Assembly (NCBI GenBank): GCA_026387665.1
Contig: JAPLLG010000009.1
Span: 1-64,000 of the forward strand
Direction: 5' to 3'
Source: Nitrospirota bacterium
Lineage (GTDB): Bacteria; Nitrospirota; Nitrospiria; Nitrospirales; Nitrospiraceae
DNA length: 64,000 nucleotides
Made by a program: the position numbers and the translations under genes. This document shows, in pieces, positions 43,223 through 58,289 of the stretch. Under the pieces are notes generated by a model. That model was given only the letters and a program-made list of their open reading frames with translations. It was not told the origin of the DNA and did no database searches. The first letter of the stretch is position 1. Each line of letters opens with the position of its first letter.

Positions 43223-45073
43223 ATGCCACCTACAATTCTCTTGAGCTGCGAGTCCATCACCAAAACCTACGGCGTGAAACCGTTGTTTTCGGATCTATCG
43301 GTCGGGTTAGCCGAAGGCGATCATGTCGGGTTGGTGGGACCCAACGGCTCCGGCAAGTCAACCTTGCTGAAGATCATGGCAGGGCTCGAAGAACCGGATG
43401 AGGGCACCAGATCGATGCGTCGGCAGCTCCGCGTCGGCTACGTGCCGCAAGAACCGTTATTCGACGGAGCCCATACGATTGAAGAAGTCCTCGCGCAGGT
43501 CCTCATCGACGAAGGTCTGGACCCCCATGAACATAGCGGCCGCACTGCCGCAGCCCTCAGCCTGGGCGAGTTCCCCGCAGCAGACCAGTCCACGGCCTCG
43601 CTTTCGGGAGGCTGGAAGAAACGTCTGGCCATCGTCCGCTCACTGATGCTGGAGCCGGACGTCCTGCTAATGGACGAACCGACCAACCACTTAGACGTCG
43701 AAGGCATCCTCTGGCTGGAACGATTACTTCGAGCCGAAGCCCGCGCCTTTCTCGTCGTCAGCCACGACCGGCGTTTTCTGGAAGCCGTCACGTCGCGGAT
43801 GATCGAGATCAATCGCAGCTATCCGAACGGCGCATTCGAAGCCAAAGGCAACTACAGCGACTTCCTGGAACAGCGGGATGCAGCCCTGCATGCGCAAGCC
43901 AACTATGAAGCCTCCTTGGCCAACCGGGTCCGCCGCGAAGTGGAATGGCTCAGACGCGGCCCCAAGGCCCGCACGACCAAAGCCAAATCGAGAATCGATT
44001 CAGCGGGCCGCTTGATCGAGGAATTGAGCAGCGCCGAATCCAGGAAAGACCCTGGCACGGCCGGCATCAATTTCACCTCATCGGGACGCCGATCCAAACA
44101 GTTGGTCGAAGCCACGCAACTTTCCAAATCGCTCGGCGGTCGTCCGATCGTCACGAACCTCGATCTGCTGCTCGGACCGGGCCAGCGAATCGGCTTGCTG
44201 GGACCGAACGGCAGCGGCAAGAGCACGCTGCTCAAGCTCATCGCTGGAACCCTCAAGCCGGATTCAGGCACCGTCACCCGCGCGGACAAACTGCGCGTGG
44301 TCACCTTCGAACAGCACCGCGAATCGCTGGACCAATCCATCTCGCTCCGCCGGGCCCTCGCCCCCTATGGCGATTCGGTCGTCTATCAAGACCGCGAAGT
44401 GCATCTCGTCTCCTGGGCGAAACGATTTCTCTTCCGGTCGGAGCAGTTGGATCTCCCCGTCTCCCGTCTCTCTGGAGGCGAACAGGCCCGGCTCCTCATC
44501 GCCAGACTAATGCTGCAGCCAGCCGACCTCCTAATCCTGGACGAACCGACGAACGACTTGGATATTCCGACGCTCGACGTATTGGAAGACAGTCTGGTGG
44601 AGTTCCCCGGCGCCTTGATGCTAGTCACGCACGACCGATGGCTCCTGGACCGCGTCTCCACCATGTTGCTCGCGCTGGACGGTACAGGCCAGACCGAATG
44701 GTTCGCCGACTATGCGCAATGGGAATCAGCACAAGAACGAAAAGCGGCAGAAGAGAACCGCGCGGCGAGCTCACGCCCCTCCAAGGCCTCACGCTCCGAG
44801 TCGGACTCGACTCCGAAAGCGAAAAAGACAGGCCTCTCCTATCGGGAGCAAAAGGAATGGGCAAAGATGGAACAGCGCATCCTCCAGGCCGAAGAGACCA
44901 TCGCGACCTGTCAGGCCGCCGTGGAAGATCCGGCCATCGCCTCCAATGCCACAGCATTGCAAGAACGATCCGCCGCGCTGGATGCAGCCAAGACAGCCGC
45001 TGAACGGCTCTATGCACGCTGGACCGAACTCGAAGGCAAACAGACGGAGGCCGCCGGACAACCGCAGGCCTAG
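43223..45073 (+). CDS. uup: ABC-F family ATPase (Uup-like)
   Basis: 616 residues. Two ABC domains: GPNGSGKST (Walker A, twice), LSGGWKKR and LSGGEQAR signatures, LLMDEPTNHLD and LILDEPTNDLD Walker B. The C-terminal 110 residues are a charged coiled coil (REQKEWAKMEQRILQAEE) as in Uup, which binds branched DNA and ribosomes. The NDLD variant in the second Walker B also fits Uup. A second ABC-F gene (3602-5446) in this window belongs to another branch. Start ATG with AGAG upstream. Confidence 0.9.
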   Translation: MPPTILLSCESITKTYGVKPLFSDLSVGLAEGDHVGLVGPNGSGKSTLLKIMAGLEEPDEGTRSMRRQLRVGYVPQEPLFDGAHTIEEVLAQVLIDEGLDPHEHSGRTAAALSLGEFPAADQSTASLSGGWKKRLAIVRSLMLEPDVLLMDEPTNHLDVEGILWLERLLRAEARAFLVVSHDRRFLEAVTSRMIEINRSYPNGAFEAKGNYSDFLEQRDAALHAQANYEASLANRVRREVEWLRRGPKARTTKAKSRIDSAGRLIEELSSAESRKDPGTAGINFTSSGRRSKQLVEATQLSKSLGGRPIVTNLDLLLGPGQRIGLLGPNGSGKSTLLKLIAGTLKPDSGTVTRADKLRVVTFEQHRESLDQSISLRRALAPYGDSVVYQDREVHLVSWAKRFLFRSEQLDLPVSRLSGGEQARLLIARLMLQPADLLILDEPTNDLDIPTLDVLEDSLVEFPGALMLVTHDRWLLDRVSTMLLALDGTGQTEWFADYAQWESAQERKAAEENRAASSRPSKASRSESDSTPKAKKTGLSYREQKEWAKMEQRILQAEETIATCQAAVEDPAIASNATALQERSAALDAAKTAAERLYARWTELEGKQTEAAGQPQA

Positions 45074-45081
45074 CCCCTCCC

Positions 45082-45208
45082 GCAGGATGCTCAAACAGTT
45101 CGTCCAGCAAGGCCGCAGGCGAGTCGAAACCGGAAGCGTACCCTCAGGGGTACGTTGAGGATTTCGATGAGCCGAGAACGAAACTGGCGGACTGCTTCAG
45201 CATCCTGC
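45082..45208. repeat. Palindromic repeat family A, copy 4
   Basis: Arms GCAGGATGCTCAAACAGTTCG and TGCTTCAGCATCCTGC; centre GGCGAGTCGAAACCGGAAGCG, TACCCTCAGGGGTACG. Begins 8 nt after the uup stop. Confidence 0.92.
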
Positions 45209-46503: not shown

Positions 46504-46607
46504 GGACGACCCACCTCGCCCCTCTCGCGACACAGGCATGGCTCCACTTCATGTTCATAACTGAGTCAGGTACACTGCAGGCGCAGACCCAACAGATAAC
46601 TGCATAT

Positions 46608-46730
46608 AGGATGCTCAAAAAGGCCGACAGCAAGGCCGCAGGCGAGTCGAAACCGGAGGCGTACCCTCAGGGGTACGTTGAGGATTTCGATGAGCCGAGA
46701 ACGAAGCTGCCGGCTTTTTTCAGCAGCCTG
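46608..46730. repeat. Palindromic repeat family A, copy 5
   Basis: Arms AGGATGCTCAAAAAGGCCG and CCGGCTTTTTTCAGCAGCCTG around the standard centre. It lies 104 nt after the mltC stop and ends 10 nt before the start codon of the next gene, so it also forms that gene's leader. Confidence 0.9.
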
Positions 46731-46740
46731 GTGAGTGAGC

Positions 46741-48360
46741 ATGAGAGAGAAGAACTACGACGCGATCATCGTTGGTGCCGGTCACAACGGACTCGTGACT
46801 GCCTGCTACCTGGCCAAGGCTGGCTGGAAGGTGCTGATGCTGGAGCGACGCTATATCGTCGGCGGCGCTTGCGTGACGGAAGAAACCTTCCCCGGCTTCA
46901 AGGTCTCCACTGCGTCGTATGTGAACAGCCTCTTCCGCAAGGAGATCATCAAGGATCTCGGCCTTGAATCCTACGGGCTGAAAATTCTGGAACGTAATCC
47001 CTCCTCCTTCACGCCCTTCCCCGATGGCCGCCATCTCTTGCTCGGTCCCGATCCGGCACTGAACCATCGACAGATTGCCAAGTTCAGCCTCAAGGACGCG
47101 AACGCCTATCCGGCGTACGAGGCCATGCTCGAACGGATGGCCACGGTCCTCGAACCGCTGCTGACCATGAGCCCGCCCAATCTGGCAAATCCAGGACTGC
47201 GAGACCTCTGGACGCTCTATCAAGCGGGCAAGCCGTTTCAAGCCATGGGGCCAGCCATGAGCGAAGCTTTTGAAATTCTCACCGCCCCGGCCAGGCAGAT
47301 TCTGGATCGCTGGTTTGAATCGGAGGAGCTCAAGGCGACGCTCGCGACCGATGCCATCATCGGCGCGATGGCTTCTCCCTCGACGCCTGGCACCGCCTAC
47401 GTCCTCTTCCACCATGTGATGGGTGAGACAAACGGAAAGCGAGGAGTCTGGGGCTATGTGCAGGGAGGCATGGGAAGAATCACGCAATCATTAGCGGCAG
47501 CAGCCCGTGATCTGAAGGTCGAGATCCGTTGCGAATCTGAGGTGGCAAAGATCCTCGTCAAGGACGGCAGGGTCCTGGGCGTTTCCCTCGCCAACGGAGA
47601 GGACTGTCACGCGCCGGTCGTGGCCAGCAATGCCGATGCGCAGGTGACCTTTACCCGTTTGCTGGACGCGCAGCAGCTTCCAGCAGAATTCTCCGAGGCC
47701 GTCAGCCGCATCAATTACGAAAGCGCGTCGCTGAAAATCAATGTGGCCCTGAGTGAGTTGCCGAACTTTCTGGCCTGCCCTGGCCTGGAGCCAGGCCCAC
47801 AGCATCGCGGCACCATCCACATCAGCCCGGACCTGGATTACATCGAGCGGGCCTTCGACGAGGCGAAATATGGGCAGCCGTCGCAACGGCCCATTCTGGA
47901 ATGCACGATCCCCTCGGTCGTCGATCCCACCGTGGCCCCGCCCGGCCAACATCTCATGTCGATGTTCGTGCAGTACGCCCCTTACAAATTGCGTGGCGCG
48001 ACCTGGGACGATCTGCGTGAAAGTTTCGCCGATCGCTGCTTCGCCGTCCTGAACGACTATGCGCCGAACTTTCAGCGCTCCGTCCTCGCCAGGCAAGTGT
48101 TGACGCCGCTCGATCTCGAACGGACCTTCAATCTGACCGGCGGGAATATCTTTCAAGGAGCCATGACGCTCAATCAGCTCTTTGCCTGCCGGCCTGTGCC
48201 GGGATTCGCCAACTACCGCACCCCGATCACAGGGCTCTACCTCTGTGGAGCCGCAGCCCATCCAGGCGGAGGAGTCATGGGCATCGCCGGCGCAAATGCC
48301 GCAAGAGAAATTCTCTCATCCACCTCGTCGCTTTCGAGACTCGTGAAGCGTATCTCGTGA
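46741..48360 (+). CDS. CrtI-like FAD-dependent oxidoreductase (phytoene desaturase superfamily)
   Basis: 539 residues. FAD-binding GAGHNGLVTACYLAKAGWKVLMLERR followed by IVGGACVTEE at the N-terminus, and the C-terminal CrtI signature NYRTPITGLYLCGAAAHPGGGVMGIAGANAA. Similar to the pyridine nucleotide-disulfide/NAD(P)-FAD oxidoreductases of the CrtI/CrtN/retinol saturase group; no crtB or crtE lies nearby, so a carotenoid role is not shown. ATG at 46741. The last five codons and the stop (GTGAAGCGTATCTCGTGA) coincide with the left arm of a family C repeat. Confidence 0.88.
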   Translation: MREKNYDAIIVGAGHNGLVTACYLAKAGWKVLMLERRYIVGGACVTEETFPGFKVSTASYVNSLFRKEIIKDLGLESYGLKILERNPSSFTPFPDGRHLLLGPDPALNHRQIAKFSLKDANAYPAYEAMLERMATVLEPLLTMSPPNLANPGLRDLWTLYQAGKPFQAMGPAMSEAFEILTAPARQILDRWFESEELKATLATDAIIGAMASPSTPGTAYVLFHHVMGETNGKRGVWGYVQGGMGRITQSLAAAARDLKVEIRCESEVAKILVKDGRVLGVSLANGEDCHAPVVASNADAQVTFTRLLDAQQLPAEFSEAVSRINYESASLKINVALSELPNFLACPGLEPGPQHRGTIHISPDLDYIERAFDEAKYGQPSQRPILECTIPSVVDPTVAPPGQHLMSMFVQYAPYKLRGATWDDLRESFADRCFAVLNDYAPNFQRSVLARQVLTPLDLERTFNLTGGNIFQGAMTLNQLFACRPVPGFANYRTPITGLYLCGAAAHPGGGVMGIAGANAAREILSSTSSLSRLVKRIS

Positions 48361-52051: not shown

Positions 52052-52236
52052 TCGAACCTCCTACAGCAACAGCCAAACCAGCAGAATGCGAAGCCTCACG
52101 AGGACGGGCACAACCTAGCCGATTCGACTTTAGCCGTCAACCATGCAGGCCAGAAGCCAATTCAACGTGTCCCTACTTTTTGTTTACGCGAAGAATTTGA
52201 TAGTGCCACACGTGTGGCCGACAGGAAAATACTCCC

Positions 52237-52362
52237 GCAGGCTGCTCAAACAGTTCGTCCAGCAAGGCCGCAGGCGAATCGAAACCGGAGGCGTACCCTT
52301 GGGGTACGTTGAGGATTTCGATGAGCCGAGAACGACGCTGGCGGGCTGTTTCAGCAGCCTGC
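52237..52362. repeat. Palindromic repeat family A, copy 6
   Basis: Arms GCAGGCTGCTCAAACAG and CTGTTTCAGCAGCCTGC around the standard centre (GGCGTACCCTTGGGGTACG). Ends 2 nt before the stop of the next minus-strand gene. The 185 nt between it and the DUF3365 start show no gene. Confidence 0.92.
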
Positions 52363-52364
52363 CT

Positions 52365-52745
52365 CTAGCAGGGGATGTTGACGGCCGGATCGCATAACAC
52401 CGGCGGAATCACTGGCGGGCGCATGTACTTGCCTGATGGATCCTGGGAGCCCATCGATCCCTTGATCGGCGGGCCGCCTGGCATTCCTGGGAGTCCCTGC
52501 CCGGCAGAACCAAACCGCTTCCCGACACTTGAACTCGCCGAGGAGCCAACTCCGGGAACCGGCACCGATGTCGGCCCGCCTGTGGAAACTCCGACGCCGG
52601 ACGTAACCGGTGGCAGAGCAGCTTGCGGAGTCTGACCCGCCTGATTTTGAACAGTAGGAGGAGTCGGCGTTTGCGGCGGCGCCTGCGCCCCACAAGGAAC
52701 AGCGAGCAGGACCAACAAAGCAGCCAACGCGAGAGAGTGCTTCAT
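52365..52745 (-). CDS. Small exported proline-rich protein
   Basis: 126 residues. Signal peptide MKHSLALAALLVLLAVPCGA, then PQTPTPPTVQNQAGQTPQ and a low-complexity Pro/Gly/Ser mature part ending in MRPPVIPPVLCDPAVNIPC with two cysteines that could form a disulfide. No family recognised. An in-frame ATG 11 codons upstream is less likely since the signal peptide starts at 52745. Confidence 0.65.
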   Translation of the reverse strand: MKHSLALAALLVLLAVPCGAQAPPQTPTPPTVQNQAGQTPQAALPPVTSGVGVSTGGPTSVPVPGVGSSASSSVGKRFGSAGQGLPGMPGGPPIKGSMGSQDPSGKYMRPPVIPPVLCDPAVNIPC

Positions 52746-52812: not shown

Positions 52813-52820
52813 ATCCCGCA
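52813..52820. repeat. Target-site duplication, left copy
   Basis: ATCCCGCA directly left of the transposon; identical octamer at 55253-55260. Confidence 0.93.
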
Positions 52821-52839
52821 GGTAGTGGGTCAGTTTGAA
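52821..52839 (+). repeat. Terminal inverted repeat, left
   Basis: GGTAGTGGGTCAGTTTGAA, 19 of 19 identical to the complement of the right end. Confidence 0.93.
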
Positions 52840-52850
52840 AAGCCATGATC

Positions 52851-52885
52851 TTGAGAATGCTTAAGCGGTCAGGTATGATGGCCGA
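52851..52885 (+). promoter_or_regulatory. Left-end promoter with operator-like sequence in the spacer
   Basis: -35 TTGAGA (52851-52856), 17-nt spacer, -10 TATGAT (52874-52879). The 20 nt from 52857 to 52876 match the palindrome of the transposase promoter at 16 positions. Predicted transcription start falls on the ATG of the 86-residue gene. Confidence 0.75.
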
Positions 52886-53146
52886 ATGAAAAAGAAACCA
52901 TCTAAAGATGTCAACGTCACAGCATTTGAGATTTTACAGGCTGTGACTGGCGAGCCTGCCGATTCGTCCCATAATGGGAAACCTGCCAAGAAGAAAGACC
53001 TGCAGGATAAGAACCCTGCCGCTGTCGCTTTGGGTCGTTTAGGTGGACTCAAGGGCGGCAAAGCAAGAGCCAGCAAGCTTTCCCCAAATAAACGCAAACA
53101 GATAGCTAAAAAGGCTGCAAATGCACGATGGTCAAAGGATCGTTAA
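52886..53146 (+). CDS. Small basic passenger protein with GRLGGLKGGKARA motif
   Basis: 86 residues, strongly basic (Lys-rich N- and C-termini). The C-terminal half has the pattern NPAAVALGRLGGLKGGKARA, LSPNKRKQIAKKAANARW, a motif seen in many small bacterial proteins of unknown function, probably nucleic-acid binding. There is no ribosome binding site: the -10 box ends 6 nt before the ATG, so the mRNA is likely leaderless. Its stop codon lies within the operator array of the next gene. Confidence 0.72.
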   Translation: MKKKPSKDVNVTAFEILQAVTGEPADSSHNGKPAKKKDLQDKNPAAVALGRLGGLKGGKARASKLSPNKRKQIAKKAANARWSKDR

Positions 53147-53193
53147 TCGTAACGATAATATCGTTTGACTACTAACGATAAATGCGCTACTAT
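53139..53193 (+). promoter_or_regulatory. Promoter with four operator half-sites upstream of the HTH-P63C gene
   Basis: -35 TTGACT (53165-53170), 17-nt spacer, -10 TACTAT (53188-53193). Half-sites ATCGTTA (53139), TAACGAT (53150), ATCGTTT (53160) and TAACGAT (53173) alternate in orientation, forming two inverted pairs that cover the -35 box. Likely bound by a dimeric HTH repressor, perhaps the gene's own product. Confidence 0.78.
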
Positions 53194-53225: not shown

Positions 53226-54323
53226 ATGGCGGCCTCAAGTGCGATCATTGATCGATTCGGTGGGCAATCAGCACTCGCAAAGCTGTTAGGCAAACGACAA
53301 AGCACCATCCAGCATTGGTACGCCAACGGGATTCCCTCTAAATGGCAAAAACCCCTCCTTGAATTAGCCAAAAAACAAGCGATTAGCCTGCAGCCCCATG
53401 ATTTCTTTGACGATGCGCCTACCGAGAAAAGCAATCCGTCAAAGATTCCGCATGCAACCCACTGGGGAGAGTTGCAAATAGGAGAGGATCACTTGCCCTG
53501 CTATGTATTAGAGACAGGGGAGCGAGTCTTCAGTTTGAAAGGAATGGTAGTAGGGCTGATCGGCACCGAAGGGGGACAGCTCTCCGAGTACATCAAAGTC
53601 CAGAGCCTAAGGCCATTCTTACCTTTGGAATTAGTCCCTGGAGAAGGGGATCAAATTCCCGCTCTCATCAAGTTCGATACCGGCAACAAATCCTTCGCAA
53701 AATACTCATGGGGTCTGCCTGTCGAAAAGTTCATGGATCTGTGCGTTGCCTACTCTACGGCTTTAGAGAAAGCGGAGCTGACCGAGCGCCAGAGATCAAC
53801 TGCAGCTAAAGCCAATTCTTTTCTTAGGGCATGCGCTAAAGTTGGTGTTGTTGCCTTGGTCGATGAGGTCACGGGTTATCAATATGAGCGTGCTCAAGAT
53901 GCCCTGCAATTCAAGTTAAAGTTATATCTTGAAGACGAAATGAGGAAATGGGAGAAGACATTTCCTGACCAATTATGGGTTGAGTTTGGTCGTCTTACAA
54001 AATGGCAAGGATCTGTGACGCAACGCCCAAAATATTGGGGCAAGCTGGTTATGGAATTGGTTTATGGGTATCTAGACAAAGATGTGGCGGATTGGTTGAG
54101 GGCGCATGCACCGAAACCCAGCCATGGACAGAACTATCACCAATGGCTGAGCAATCAATATGGTCTAAAGCGGCTTACAGAACATGTTTGGATGCTGATA
54201 GGAATGGCAACGGCATGCGAATCAATGCCAGAGCTGAGACAGAAAATGGCCGAAAGATTTGGGCGCCATCCCGTACAAATCATGCTCTATCTTCCACCGT
54301 CAGAGGAATCTAGGTCAGCGTAA
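53226..54323 (+). CDS. HTH (YdaS/Cro-like) and P63C-domain passenger protein
   Basis: 365 residues. Residues 4-60 are a Cro/YdaS-like HTH (DRFGGQSALAKLLGKRQSTI, HWYANGIPSKWQ, LQPHDFF). A middle region (80-230, GLIGTEGGQLSEYIKVQSLR) leads to the phage-associated P63C domain (about 235-350: TFPDQLWVEFGRLTKW, RPKYWGKLVMELVYGYL, HQWLSNQYGLKRLTEHVWML, KMAERFG). P63C is of unknown function. AGGAGGGG ribosome site. AT-richer than flanking genes. A role as transposon regulator is inferred from the HTH and operators. Confidence 0.85.
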   Translation: MAASSAIIDRFGGQSALAKLLGKRQSTIQHWYANGIPSKWQKPLLELAKKQAISLQPHDFFDDAPTEKSNPSKIPHATHWGELQIGEDHLPCYVLETGERVFSLKGMVVGLIGTEGGQLSEYIKVQSLRPFLPLELVPGEGDQIPALIKFDTGNKSFAKYSWGLPVEKFMDLCVAYSTALEKAELTERQRSTAAKANSFLRACAKVGVVALVDEVTGYQYERAQDALQFKLKLYLEDEMRKWEKTFPDQLWVEFGRLTKWQGSVTQRPKYWGKLVMELVYGYLDKDVADWLRAHAPKPSHGQNYHQWLSNQYGLKRLTEHVWMLIGMATACESMPELRQKMAERFGRHPVQIMLYLPPSEESRSA

Positions 54324-54356: not shown

Positions 54357-54385
54357 TTGACAATGCTTGATCGGTCAAGCATAGT
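54357..54385 (+). promoter_or_regulatory. Transposase promoter with perfect palindrome in the spacer
   Basis: -35 TTGACA (54357-54362), 17-nt spacer, -10 CATAGT (54380-54385). ATGCTTGA-TCGG-TCAAGCAT (54363-54382) is a perfect 8+8 inverted repeat, well placed for repression. GGAGG follows before the ATG. Confidence 0.8.
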
Positions 54386-55252: not shown

Positions 55253-55260
55253 ATCCCGCA
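55253..55260. repeat. Target-site duplication, right copy
   Basis: ATCCCGCA, identical to 52813-52820. Confidence 0.93.
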
Positions 55261-57458: not shown

Positions 57459-58289
57459 CTAACGGACGCAGGGACCAGAATAATATGGCCTGCTCTTCAT
57501 TGGCATCGGTACGCCCAAGTTACCTTTCCAGAAATGTGAATCTCCGAGGAGCCAATGATATAAGTTTGCATATTCATAGTCGGGATGAATTTTAAGGCCC
57601 ACGCCTCCAACTCTTGATGTGTCTCTTACCAACATCTTCTTTATGGCCTCGAATACAGGAAGTGTATATTTAGCTTCTCCCCCAATCCTGGCTATAGAGC
57701 ATGAGGCAACTACGTCGGCAAGCTGAAGAAGGCGGACAAGCTTCGGCTGCGAGGAGAGGACATTAAGCGCAAGCCTATCAGGCTTTACGTAGATAGTCCC
57801 AGACTCTACCGTTTCAAGGCAGTCTGCGAAAAACCGGTCCTCATCCGACCGATCCCCGCTGGGCCGTGCAGCGACGACCACACCATGTTTATCCCGGCGG
57901 GCCAGTTCGTTGTGCACACGTTCAATAAACAGACGAGTCACATCCGCTTCAGGATTTGGCGCTCCCGCTACAGCCCGTTTAAATCGTGTATCTTCCGCGA
58001 TCACTAAAGCTTTCACGCCTGCTGCATCAGCAATTGCCAGAGATTGCAGAAAAAAATCCTCCCGCTTGGGATGGATTAGGTTGCGCCACATCCAGAGCTC
58101 ACGGCCAGGCGACCACTTGAAGCATTCTCGGTCTGGAAATCCAAAATTCTTGCACACATCACTAAGCTTTCTTTCCAAATCCGCAACTTGCCCATCGGGT
58201 ACACATATGCCTCCGATTCCAACAATAGGGCCCATGTTCGGCCTAGATGGGCTGTCTTGTCGAGCATCGTCAGCAAAAACAAATTCCAT
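57459..58289 (-). CDS. DUF3800 protein
   Basis: 276 residues. Begins EFVFADDARQD, the first acidic strand of the DUF3800 RNase-H-like fold (where DDS/DES is usual, here DDA). Later acidic strands ALVIAEDTRF and VVVAARPSGDRSDEDRFF and a C-terminal LLQLADVVASCSIARI complete the fold. Often found on mobile DNA; nuclease activity is suspected but unproven. The Ser to Ala change may matter. Base composition is AT-richer than neighbours, suggesting transfer. Confidence 0.8.
   Translation of the reverse strand: MEFVFADDARQDSPSRPNMGPIVGIGGICVPDGQVADLERKLSDVCKNFGFPDRECFKWSPGRELWMWRNLIHPKREDFFLQSLAIADAAGVKALVIAEDTRFKRAVAGAPNPEADVTRLFIERVHNELARRDKHGVVVAARPSGDRSDEDRFFADCLETVESGTIYVKPDRLALNVLSSQPKLVRLLQLADVVASCSIARIGGEAKYTLPVFEAIKKMLVRDTSRVGGVGLKIHPDYEYANLYHWLLGDSHFWKGNLGVPMPMKSRPYYSGPCVR

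Follow-up and report, generated by a model that had tools for sequence, protein, structure and literature searches.

Introduction

Insertion sequences (IS) that carry passenger genes are an already known concept, set out in passages of PMC3129680 and PMC7986276, and transporter IS (tIS) of the IS1/IS1595 group offer a described system with which the element reported here can be compared, as it is likewise an IS with a passenger gene. A second described system comes from temperate phages: passages of PMC8585504 call the slot that holds the abortive-infection gene bstA in prophage BTP1 a hotspot, likening it to rexAB. In Lederbergviruses this slot lies between cI and N, and it is taken by bstA in BTP1 and by a gene for a P63C-domain protein in SPN9CC and SI8. 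The P63C domain is common in phages and has no known role. The phrase "P63C domain" occurs in PMC6536676, PMC10868621 and PMC13414232, passages of the first two giving no function for it, and our searches of the literature (open papers only) found no function for any P63C protein. Here we analyse a P63C gene in a window of 64,000 nucleotides, by which we mean the whole stretch of DNA that was studied.

Results

The P63C Gene Lies in a Complete IS1-Type Element

The first-pass annotation had placed the gene in a transposon. We find a complete element, 2,432 bp long, that holds three genes in one direction, ends in perfect 19-bp inverted repeats and is flanked by an 8-bp target duplication. The small first gene is named KGG after the GGLKGGKAR stretch of its 86-aa product.

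52813-52820, unstranded: left copy of the 8-bp target duplication, ATCCCGCA, in the window sequence
52821-52839, + strand: left terminal inverted repeat, GGTAGTGGGTCAGTTTGAA (pair I1, 100% over 19 nt)
52886-53146, + strand: small KGG gene, 86 aa, with a C-terminal GGLKGGKAR..RW motif and a match to the phrog_2384 N-terminus
53226-54323, + strand: HTH-P63C gene, ATG start, 365 aa
54410-55243, + strand: IS1-type transposase, 277 aa in a single frame, by its DDE_Tnp_IS1 and transpos_IS1 scores
55234-55252, - strand: right terminal inverted repeat (pair I1), 19 bp identical to the left one
55253-55260, unstranded: right copy of the target duplication, ATCCCGCA, in the window sequence

The transposase scored 30 bits against DDE_Tnp_IS1, above the cut-off of 24.1, and the element has both the terminal inverted repeats and the 8-9 bp target duplication of IS1. 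Its score against NCBIfam transpos_IS1 was 60.6 bits, below the equivalog cut-off of 100, and because of this divergence we file the element as IS1-type rather than as a classical IS1. The window's genome contains one full copy of the element and one diverged IS1 copy elsewhere. Joined through a single target copy, the flanks aligned with two related genomes and showed no break where they meet (82% over 837 bp in one genome, 81% over 619 bp in the other), and ATCCCGCA is single-copy at the empty sites of these relatives (G010 and G015). The empty sites show that the element was inserted in the past and, as the joined flanks align to them unbroken, that its three genes arrived together by transposition; with the repeats, the duplication and the IS1-type transposase, they establish the transposon setting as real.

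Elsewhere in the window, a dispersed intergenic repeat (strings QFVQQGRRR and GYVEDFDEPRT) was noticed at about 44712-45158, 46551-46967 and 52143-52397. A DUF3800 gene lies close to the element (57459-58289, - strand), and another adjoins P63C in locus L079.

P63C Is a Recurrent Cargo of IS1 and IS1595 Elements

P63C proved to be a recurrent IS cargo, an association that is new here. An IS1 or IS1595 transposase adjoins 23 of 38 P63C genes, compared with none of 26 control genes (Fisher p 1.2e-7), the controls being HTH_3 loci that have similar flanks and come from the same genomes, taken as the best-scoring match per genome and not as random genes. Two of the 23 (L119 and L120) are weak IS1595 matches with E about 1e-7. 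Within the 38, L083 and L084 are near-identical, and L111, cut by a contig end, and L115, a fragment, were both counted as lacking a transposase; head-only matches, the fragment L105 and the HTH-only L012 were excluded beforehand. Without the five centre genomes the count is 19 of 33. Only IS1 and IS1595 transposases served as queries, so the count may overlook other IS families next to P63C. A sample of 100 relatives held eight P63C genes besides that of the window, seven of them adjoining such a transposase, and five phylum samples of 396, 294, 297, 301 and 292 genomes gave 10, 4, 6, 5 and 5 P63C-domain matches, with a transposase beside 7, 1, 4, 2 and 2 of them, respectively.

The genome scan yielded 21 loci, 10 of which have an IS1 or IS1595 transposase or a fragment of one, while four further loci (L016, L017, L019 and L031) have one IS1 end. 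Thirteen P63C-carrying elements possess both inverted repeats and an exact duplication, of 8 bp in 12 cases and 9 bp in one (L124). Nine are of the IS1 type (window, L013, L014, L018, L029, L126, L124, L128 and L129) and four of the IS1595 type (L020, L032, L008 and L114); L022 and L127 have ends and no duplication. We also observed a stretch of 407 bp between two IS1-like ends (L105:1484-1890) that contains a C-terminal P63C fragment and looks like a small non-autonomous derivative, and a viral contig in which the window's exact 19-bp IS end stands just behind a P63C gene (L220:3451-3469).

Could P63C be a neutral hitchhiker, mobile through past capture by some IS1 and IS1595 elements and of no benefit to element or host? 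Fragments and single-ended elements do exist (L105, L115 and L017). Against this, the core is strongly conserved across phyla, with 64 invariant columns among 22 aligned relatives (the sequence of one, L031, is cut), and P63C is present repeatedly in two IS families, in phages and in plasmids, so that we regard mere hitchhiking as very unlikely.

The P63C Gene Has Been Exchanged between Carriers

A core tree of 71 rows, aligned on the A1 profile, has poorly supported deep branches; a first tree, many of whose rows covered less than half of the alignment, was discarded. The labels IS1 and IS1595 interleave on it with at least six changes, and those of IS, phage and plasmid with at least 11, while L078 (IS1) and L032 (IS1595) are sisters at 100/99. 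Such repeated changes of label are what would be expected of a gene exchanged as cargo, and the tree shows that P63C has moved between IS1 and IS1595. The survey of relatives and their neighbours supports the first-pass placing of the protein on mobile DNA, with a DNA-binding domain and operators of its own, and finds P63C genes in general to reside on mobile DNA, namely phages, plasmids and IS elements.

A Three-Part Protein with an Exchangeable Head

The window protein divides into the following parts:

53241-53393, + strand: HTH, carph-isopro NF046037, residues 6-56 (NCBIfam 55.2 bits, cut-off 38)
53457-53882, + strand: BRO-N-like module, about residues 78-219, by predicted-structure match (4ye7, DdrC, Ski-like)
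53919-54176, + strand: P63C domain PF10546, residues 232-317 (Pfam 86.5 bits, cut-off 26.1, E 1.9e-24)

Both sequence domains score above their curated cut-offs, so the described fusion of P63C to an HTH is correct. The HTH is Cro-like (carph-isopro), with a weak match to the Cro protein Xfaso 1 in the PDB (3bd1); over the same stretch YdaS_toxin (PF15943) reached 20.2 bits against a cut-off of 30 and P22_Cro (PF14549) 22 bits against 30.2. The HTH alone is shared with L012 in the same genome (G000:C13:193430-193612; 48% over residues 4-63).

phrog_2384 spans residues 69-357 of the window protein, and the temperate-phage P63C proteins (PF10546, phrog_2384) belong to the same family over the whole core. 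The closest of them comes from Erwinia phage Midgardsormr38, with 42% identity over 84%. Unlike the window protein, the phage members read mostly have a KGG-type or short head; one viral contig (L185) also encodes the HTH head. Among the 22 aligned relatives the HTH occurs only in the window, L013-L017 and L019, the rest having a KGG-type or short head. In HTH-type loci the KGG stretch can be a separate upstream gene (window, L013, L017, L019 and, weakly, L016). L018 and L032 fall inside the window's nine-member clade on the core tree and are 57% and 56% identical to the window protein over the whole length, 65% and 63% over the core, yet in place of the HTH they have a different head rich in glycine and lysine. 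The HTH is therefore not general among P63C proteins. The first-pass annotation had named loss of the HTH in close relatives, together with an unrelated catalytic role, as evidence against its reading; the former is seen in these two loci, and no catalytic role was found.

The annotation had also proposed residues 80-350 for structure prediction; these do not form a single P63C domain, and about residues 78-219 look like a separate BRO-N-like module. Our core structure model, built from 52 sequences (pLDDT 85.7, pTM 0.67), replaced a first model with a pTM of 0.46. Its top match in a second look was 4ye7, the N-terminal domain of granulovirus Orf22 (Z 8.0, 97 aligned residues, rmsd 3.0), which exceeds the other rows yet stays within the tool's middling range, followed by DdrC (Z 5.4), a Ski-like domain (Z 5.2) and Dachshund domains. 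We take 4ye7 and DdrC to be of the BRO-N type. The domains of viral regulators are reportedly the subject of work by Iyer and colleagues in 2002. BRO proteins were also listed, with weak E-values, by Foldseek against viral models. The likeness to BRO-N and Ski-Dachshund domains (4ye7, DdrC, 3eq5 and 1l8r) is one of fold, at Z 8.0-4.9 with sequence identities of 3-17%, and Pfam gave no match on residues 68-225; the C-terminal P63C part produced weak KIX-like helical-domain matches only (Z 4.5). In the model, then, the middle of the protein resembles BRO-N-type folds, and it may bind DNA. No solved P63C structure was found by PDB sequence searches, including those with the A1 and A3 queries. An enzymatic fold for P63C found no support: Foldseek against the PDB gave no hit below 0.001 with either the first or the core model, and the PDB sequence searches were unconvincing.

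Candidate Operators Overlap the Promoter of the P63C Gene

Control-type sites were found upstream of all three genes:

52851-52879, + strand: promoter-like site of the KGG gene, TTGAGA-17-TATGAT (repeat pair D1)
53139-53180, + strand: candidate operator array, three inverted repeats with TAACGA/TCGTTA sites at 53140, 53150 and 53173
53165-53193, + strand: promoter-like site of the P63C gene, TTGACT-17-TACTAT, sigma-70-like and overlapped by the operator array
54357-54385, + strand: promoter-like site of the transposase gene, TTGACA-17-CATAGT, with a palindrome in the spacer

The operator array that had been proposed for the gene is real, in that three inverted repeats with 7-bp arms (53139-53156, 53151-53165 and 53159-53180) lie over the sigma-70-like promoter site. 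The promoter hexamers alone prove little, because five such sites occur in the stretch compared with 2.3 in shuffles, and the window palindromes alone are only moderately surprising, as 25 of 1000 dinucleotide shuffles of the 110 bp upstream of the P63C gene reach an arm of at least 7. Stronger support comes from L110, from another phylum sample, in which the identical 15-bp palindrome AACGATAATATCGTT stands between the promoter hexamers. The phage HTH-P63C gene of L185 has AACGAAAATTTTCGTT upstream, with palindromes as long in 10 of 1000 shuffles. Where the recognition region of the head reads KGQ instead of KRQ, KKQ or VKQ, the palindromes are different (two cases, L015 and L019). The operator claim is weakened by four of the nine upstream regions (L013, L014, L016 and L017), in which palindromes were no better than in shuffles; half-sites are nevertheless present in L013, L014 and L017.

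The whole window element contains three copies of TAACGA or its reverse, against 1.1 expected by shuffling, and all three are at the P63C promoter. Mapping over six HTH-type loci placed within 110 bp upstream of P63C three of three sites in the window, three of four in L013, two of four in L110, one of one in L014, one of two in L017 and one of two in L185; in L013 one of the four sites is near the transposase promoter. The element of the window has no TAACGA at the transposase promoter, the small-gene promoter or the IS ends. Because the three sites overlap the P63C promoter and none that of the transposase, autoregulation rather than control of transposition is suggested, and the HTH-P63C gene would be autoregulated with an operator specificity set by its head.

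These observations bear on the reading in which P63C is a transposition regulator, an accessory DNA-binding protein by which IS1 and IS1595 elements repress or license their transposase. IS-linked P63C genes do stand directly beside the transposase, whether divergent from it, downstream of it or in one operon with it; the carrier families found, two in number, are related to each other, and DNA-binding heads on the P63C protein would suit such a role. The site distribution in the window argues against it and leaves control of the transposase by the HTH unsupported there, so that the earlier suggestion of P63C proteins as regulators of mobile DNA is not supported as regards this transposon; in addition, IS1 copies of the same subgroup manage without P63C, which is absent from L125, L136, L149 and L141, and P63C is common in phages and plasmids that have no IS1 or IS1595 transposases. 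We consider transposition control unlikely, although worth keeping in mind.

The Transposase-Promoter Palindrome and the KGG Gene

The palindrome in the transposase-promoter spacer, ATGCTTGA-TCGG-TCAAGCAT (54363-54382), differs from TAACGA and also occurs in IS1 elements without P63C (L125 and L139). The KGG-gene and transposase promoters share a 26-bp stretch (81%), and residues 54-84 of the KGG protein match positions 8-38 of the phrog_2384 profile (E 5e-6). We further noticed that the KGG gene is present in IS1 copies without P63C (L125, L134, L136, L137, L139 and L149), so that it looks like an accessory of this IS1 subgroup and not a partner of P63C, and that a palindrome near GCTTGAGCGCTCAAGC between the transposase-promoter hexamers is common to many KGG-bearing IS1 elements (window 54357-54385, L013:5147, L110:2709, L017:4317, L005:1265, L113:2501, L125:1448 and L139:1465). 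It is possible that this palindrome is an operator of the KGG protein. All nine motif-bearing IS1 elements have KGG, seven have KGG without the motif and six have neither (p 0.046, leaving out L124 and L128, repeat entries for L005 and L113); as the consensus behind this p value was chosen after the fact, the link stays a lead.

P63C in Phage Slots and beside Defence-Type Genes

P63C matched 45 phage records, and of 600 pattern stretches in IMG/VR at least 554 code for relatives; the neighbours of 31 representative viral loci, read by eye, were too mixed to count. Twelve hand-picked, non-random phage loci were read (11 phage records and one prophage on a plasmid). In five of them P63C follows the repressor immediately and runs in the same direction, a slot that in BTP1 is taken by bstA; in the other seven it is beside Arc/Ant-type regions, near integrases, or isolated.

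The position of P63C in phage immunity regions, together with the BRO-N-like middle domain and the identical operators in distant elements, fits a relative of phage-type repressors or antirepressors, a selfish regulator giving immunity against elements with like operators. We judge this improbable, since the promoter of the gene itself is the one place in the window where operators were found and many relatives have another head instead of the HTH.

Defence-type genes recur around P63C. From 14 plasmid records, five were read, hand-picked like the phage loci, one of them the prophage counted above. In the remaining four it neighbours an LlaMI-type restriction enzyme, lies near an Abi/PD-T4-5 (AbiD-type) protein, or stands beside both a PDC-S06 ATPase and a type IIG restriction enzyme, while pDFI4 has no defence-type gene annotated by P63C. 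Some of the 13 verified elements carry a second, defence-like gene, which the window element does not. L029 also carries a DNA methylase-Mrr gene (N6_N4_Mtase-Mrr), L013 an NYN/HEC-09 gene and L114 a Clp-like protease; a Panacea antitoxin is carried in L128 and in L007, which has ends and no exact duplication. Near these genomes, IS1 copies without P63C carry or adjoin PD-Lambda-2_B-type genes (L147, in the window's genome, and L133, with a HigB-like toxin), an RmrA-type gene (L148), DUF4258 (L139) and further genes, the borders of these four named elements not being established. L147 is a second IS1 transposase in that genome (G000:C8, 13194-14024), beside its PD-Lambda-2_B gene. Two other IS1 elements with target duplications (L136:811-3308 and L149:753-3569) hold a gene of about 350 aa whose product by eye resembles an Ntn/proteasome-type protein; that of L136 had no Pfam or PADLOC match.

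With E values of up to 1 allowed, no PADLOC 2.0.0 model matched the window protein, and the P63C proteins scanned gave no defence-model match besides a weak one to mad1, over 29 residues of the L185 head. Related genes occur in many similar IS elements, in prophages and on plasmids across bacteria, often at anti-phage or toxin-antitoxin sites, which makes P63C a good candidate for a defence or exclusion protein of an uncharacterised kind.

Discussion

The best explanation that we can offer, tentatively and with slightly less than even confidence, is that the HTH-P63C gene is the cargo of an IS1-type insertion sequence and encodes an autoregulated DNA-binding protein that acts against competing mobile DNA. 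Its product has three parts, beginning with an interchangeable N-terminal head (here the Cro-like HTH), continuing with a BRO-N-like middle and ending in the conserved P63C domain. Judging from the sites, the HTH would bind TAACGA over its own promoter and so keep expression low or constant, while the conserved middle and the P63C end would carry out the real work of the protein, most likely exclusion or abortive infection directed at incoming phage DNA. We infer this anti-phage or exclusion role. Against it count the lack of a match to known defence systems among the P63C proteins scanned (the weak mad1 match apart), the restriction of a second, defence-like gene to some of the verified elements, the seven phage loci that are not directly behind a repressor and the non-random choice of phage and plasmid loci; DNA-binding modules, moreover, would suit a regulator just as well as an effector.

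A broader proposal, which we hold with more doubt, is that P63C proteins form a widespread, uncharacterised family of anti-phage or exclusion proteins whose DNA-binding heads can be swapped, and that single IS1 and IS1595 elements carry them as autonomous cargo, as prophages and plasmids do too. If so, small IS1 and IS1595 elements would serve in many phyla as dedicated vehicles for defence genes and, if confirmed, a single IS would give exclusion genes a way to pass between phyla and among phages, plasmids and chromosomes. The IS elements are compact and self-contained, so P63C can be tested in them by itself, and its position behind a phage repressor and the defence-type neighbours make "unknown function" a concrete plating question.

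Compared with known systems, the P63C passenger differs from reported tIS in recurring in both families, with exchange between them. Our literature searches, which covered open papers only, turned up neither this situation nor any mention of P63C as a passenger of an IS. As regards BstA, we rejected membership of that family: hhalign gave a probability of 1.3%, without any sequence relation, and the PADLOC BstA model hits BstA and none of the scanned P63C proteins. BstA nevertheless shares its slot with the P63C proteins of SPN9CC and SI8, and, going by passages of PMC8585504 for BstA, each protein combines a DNA-binding-type N-terminal part with a second domain. On our reading, expression of P63C would take place in the resident state, as with BstA or Rex, but the family is an unrelated one.
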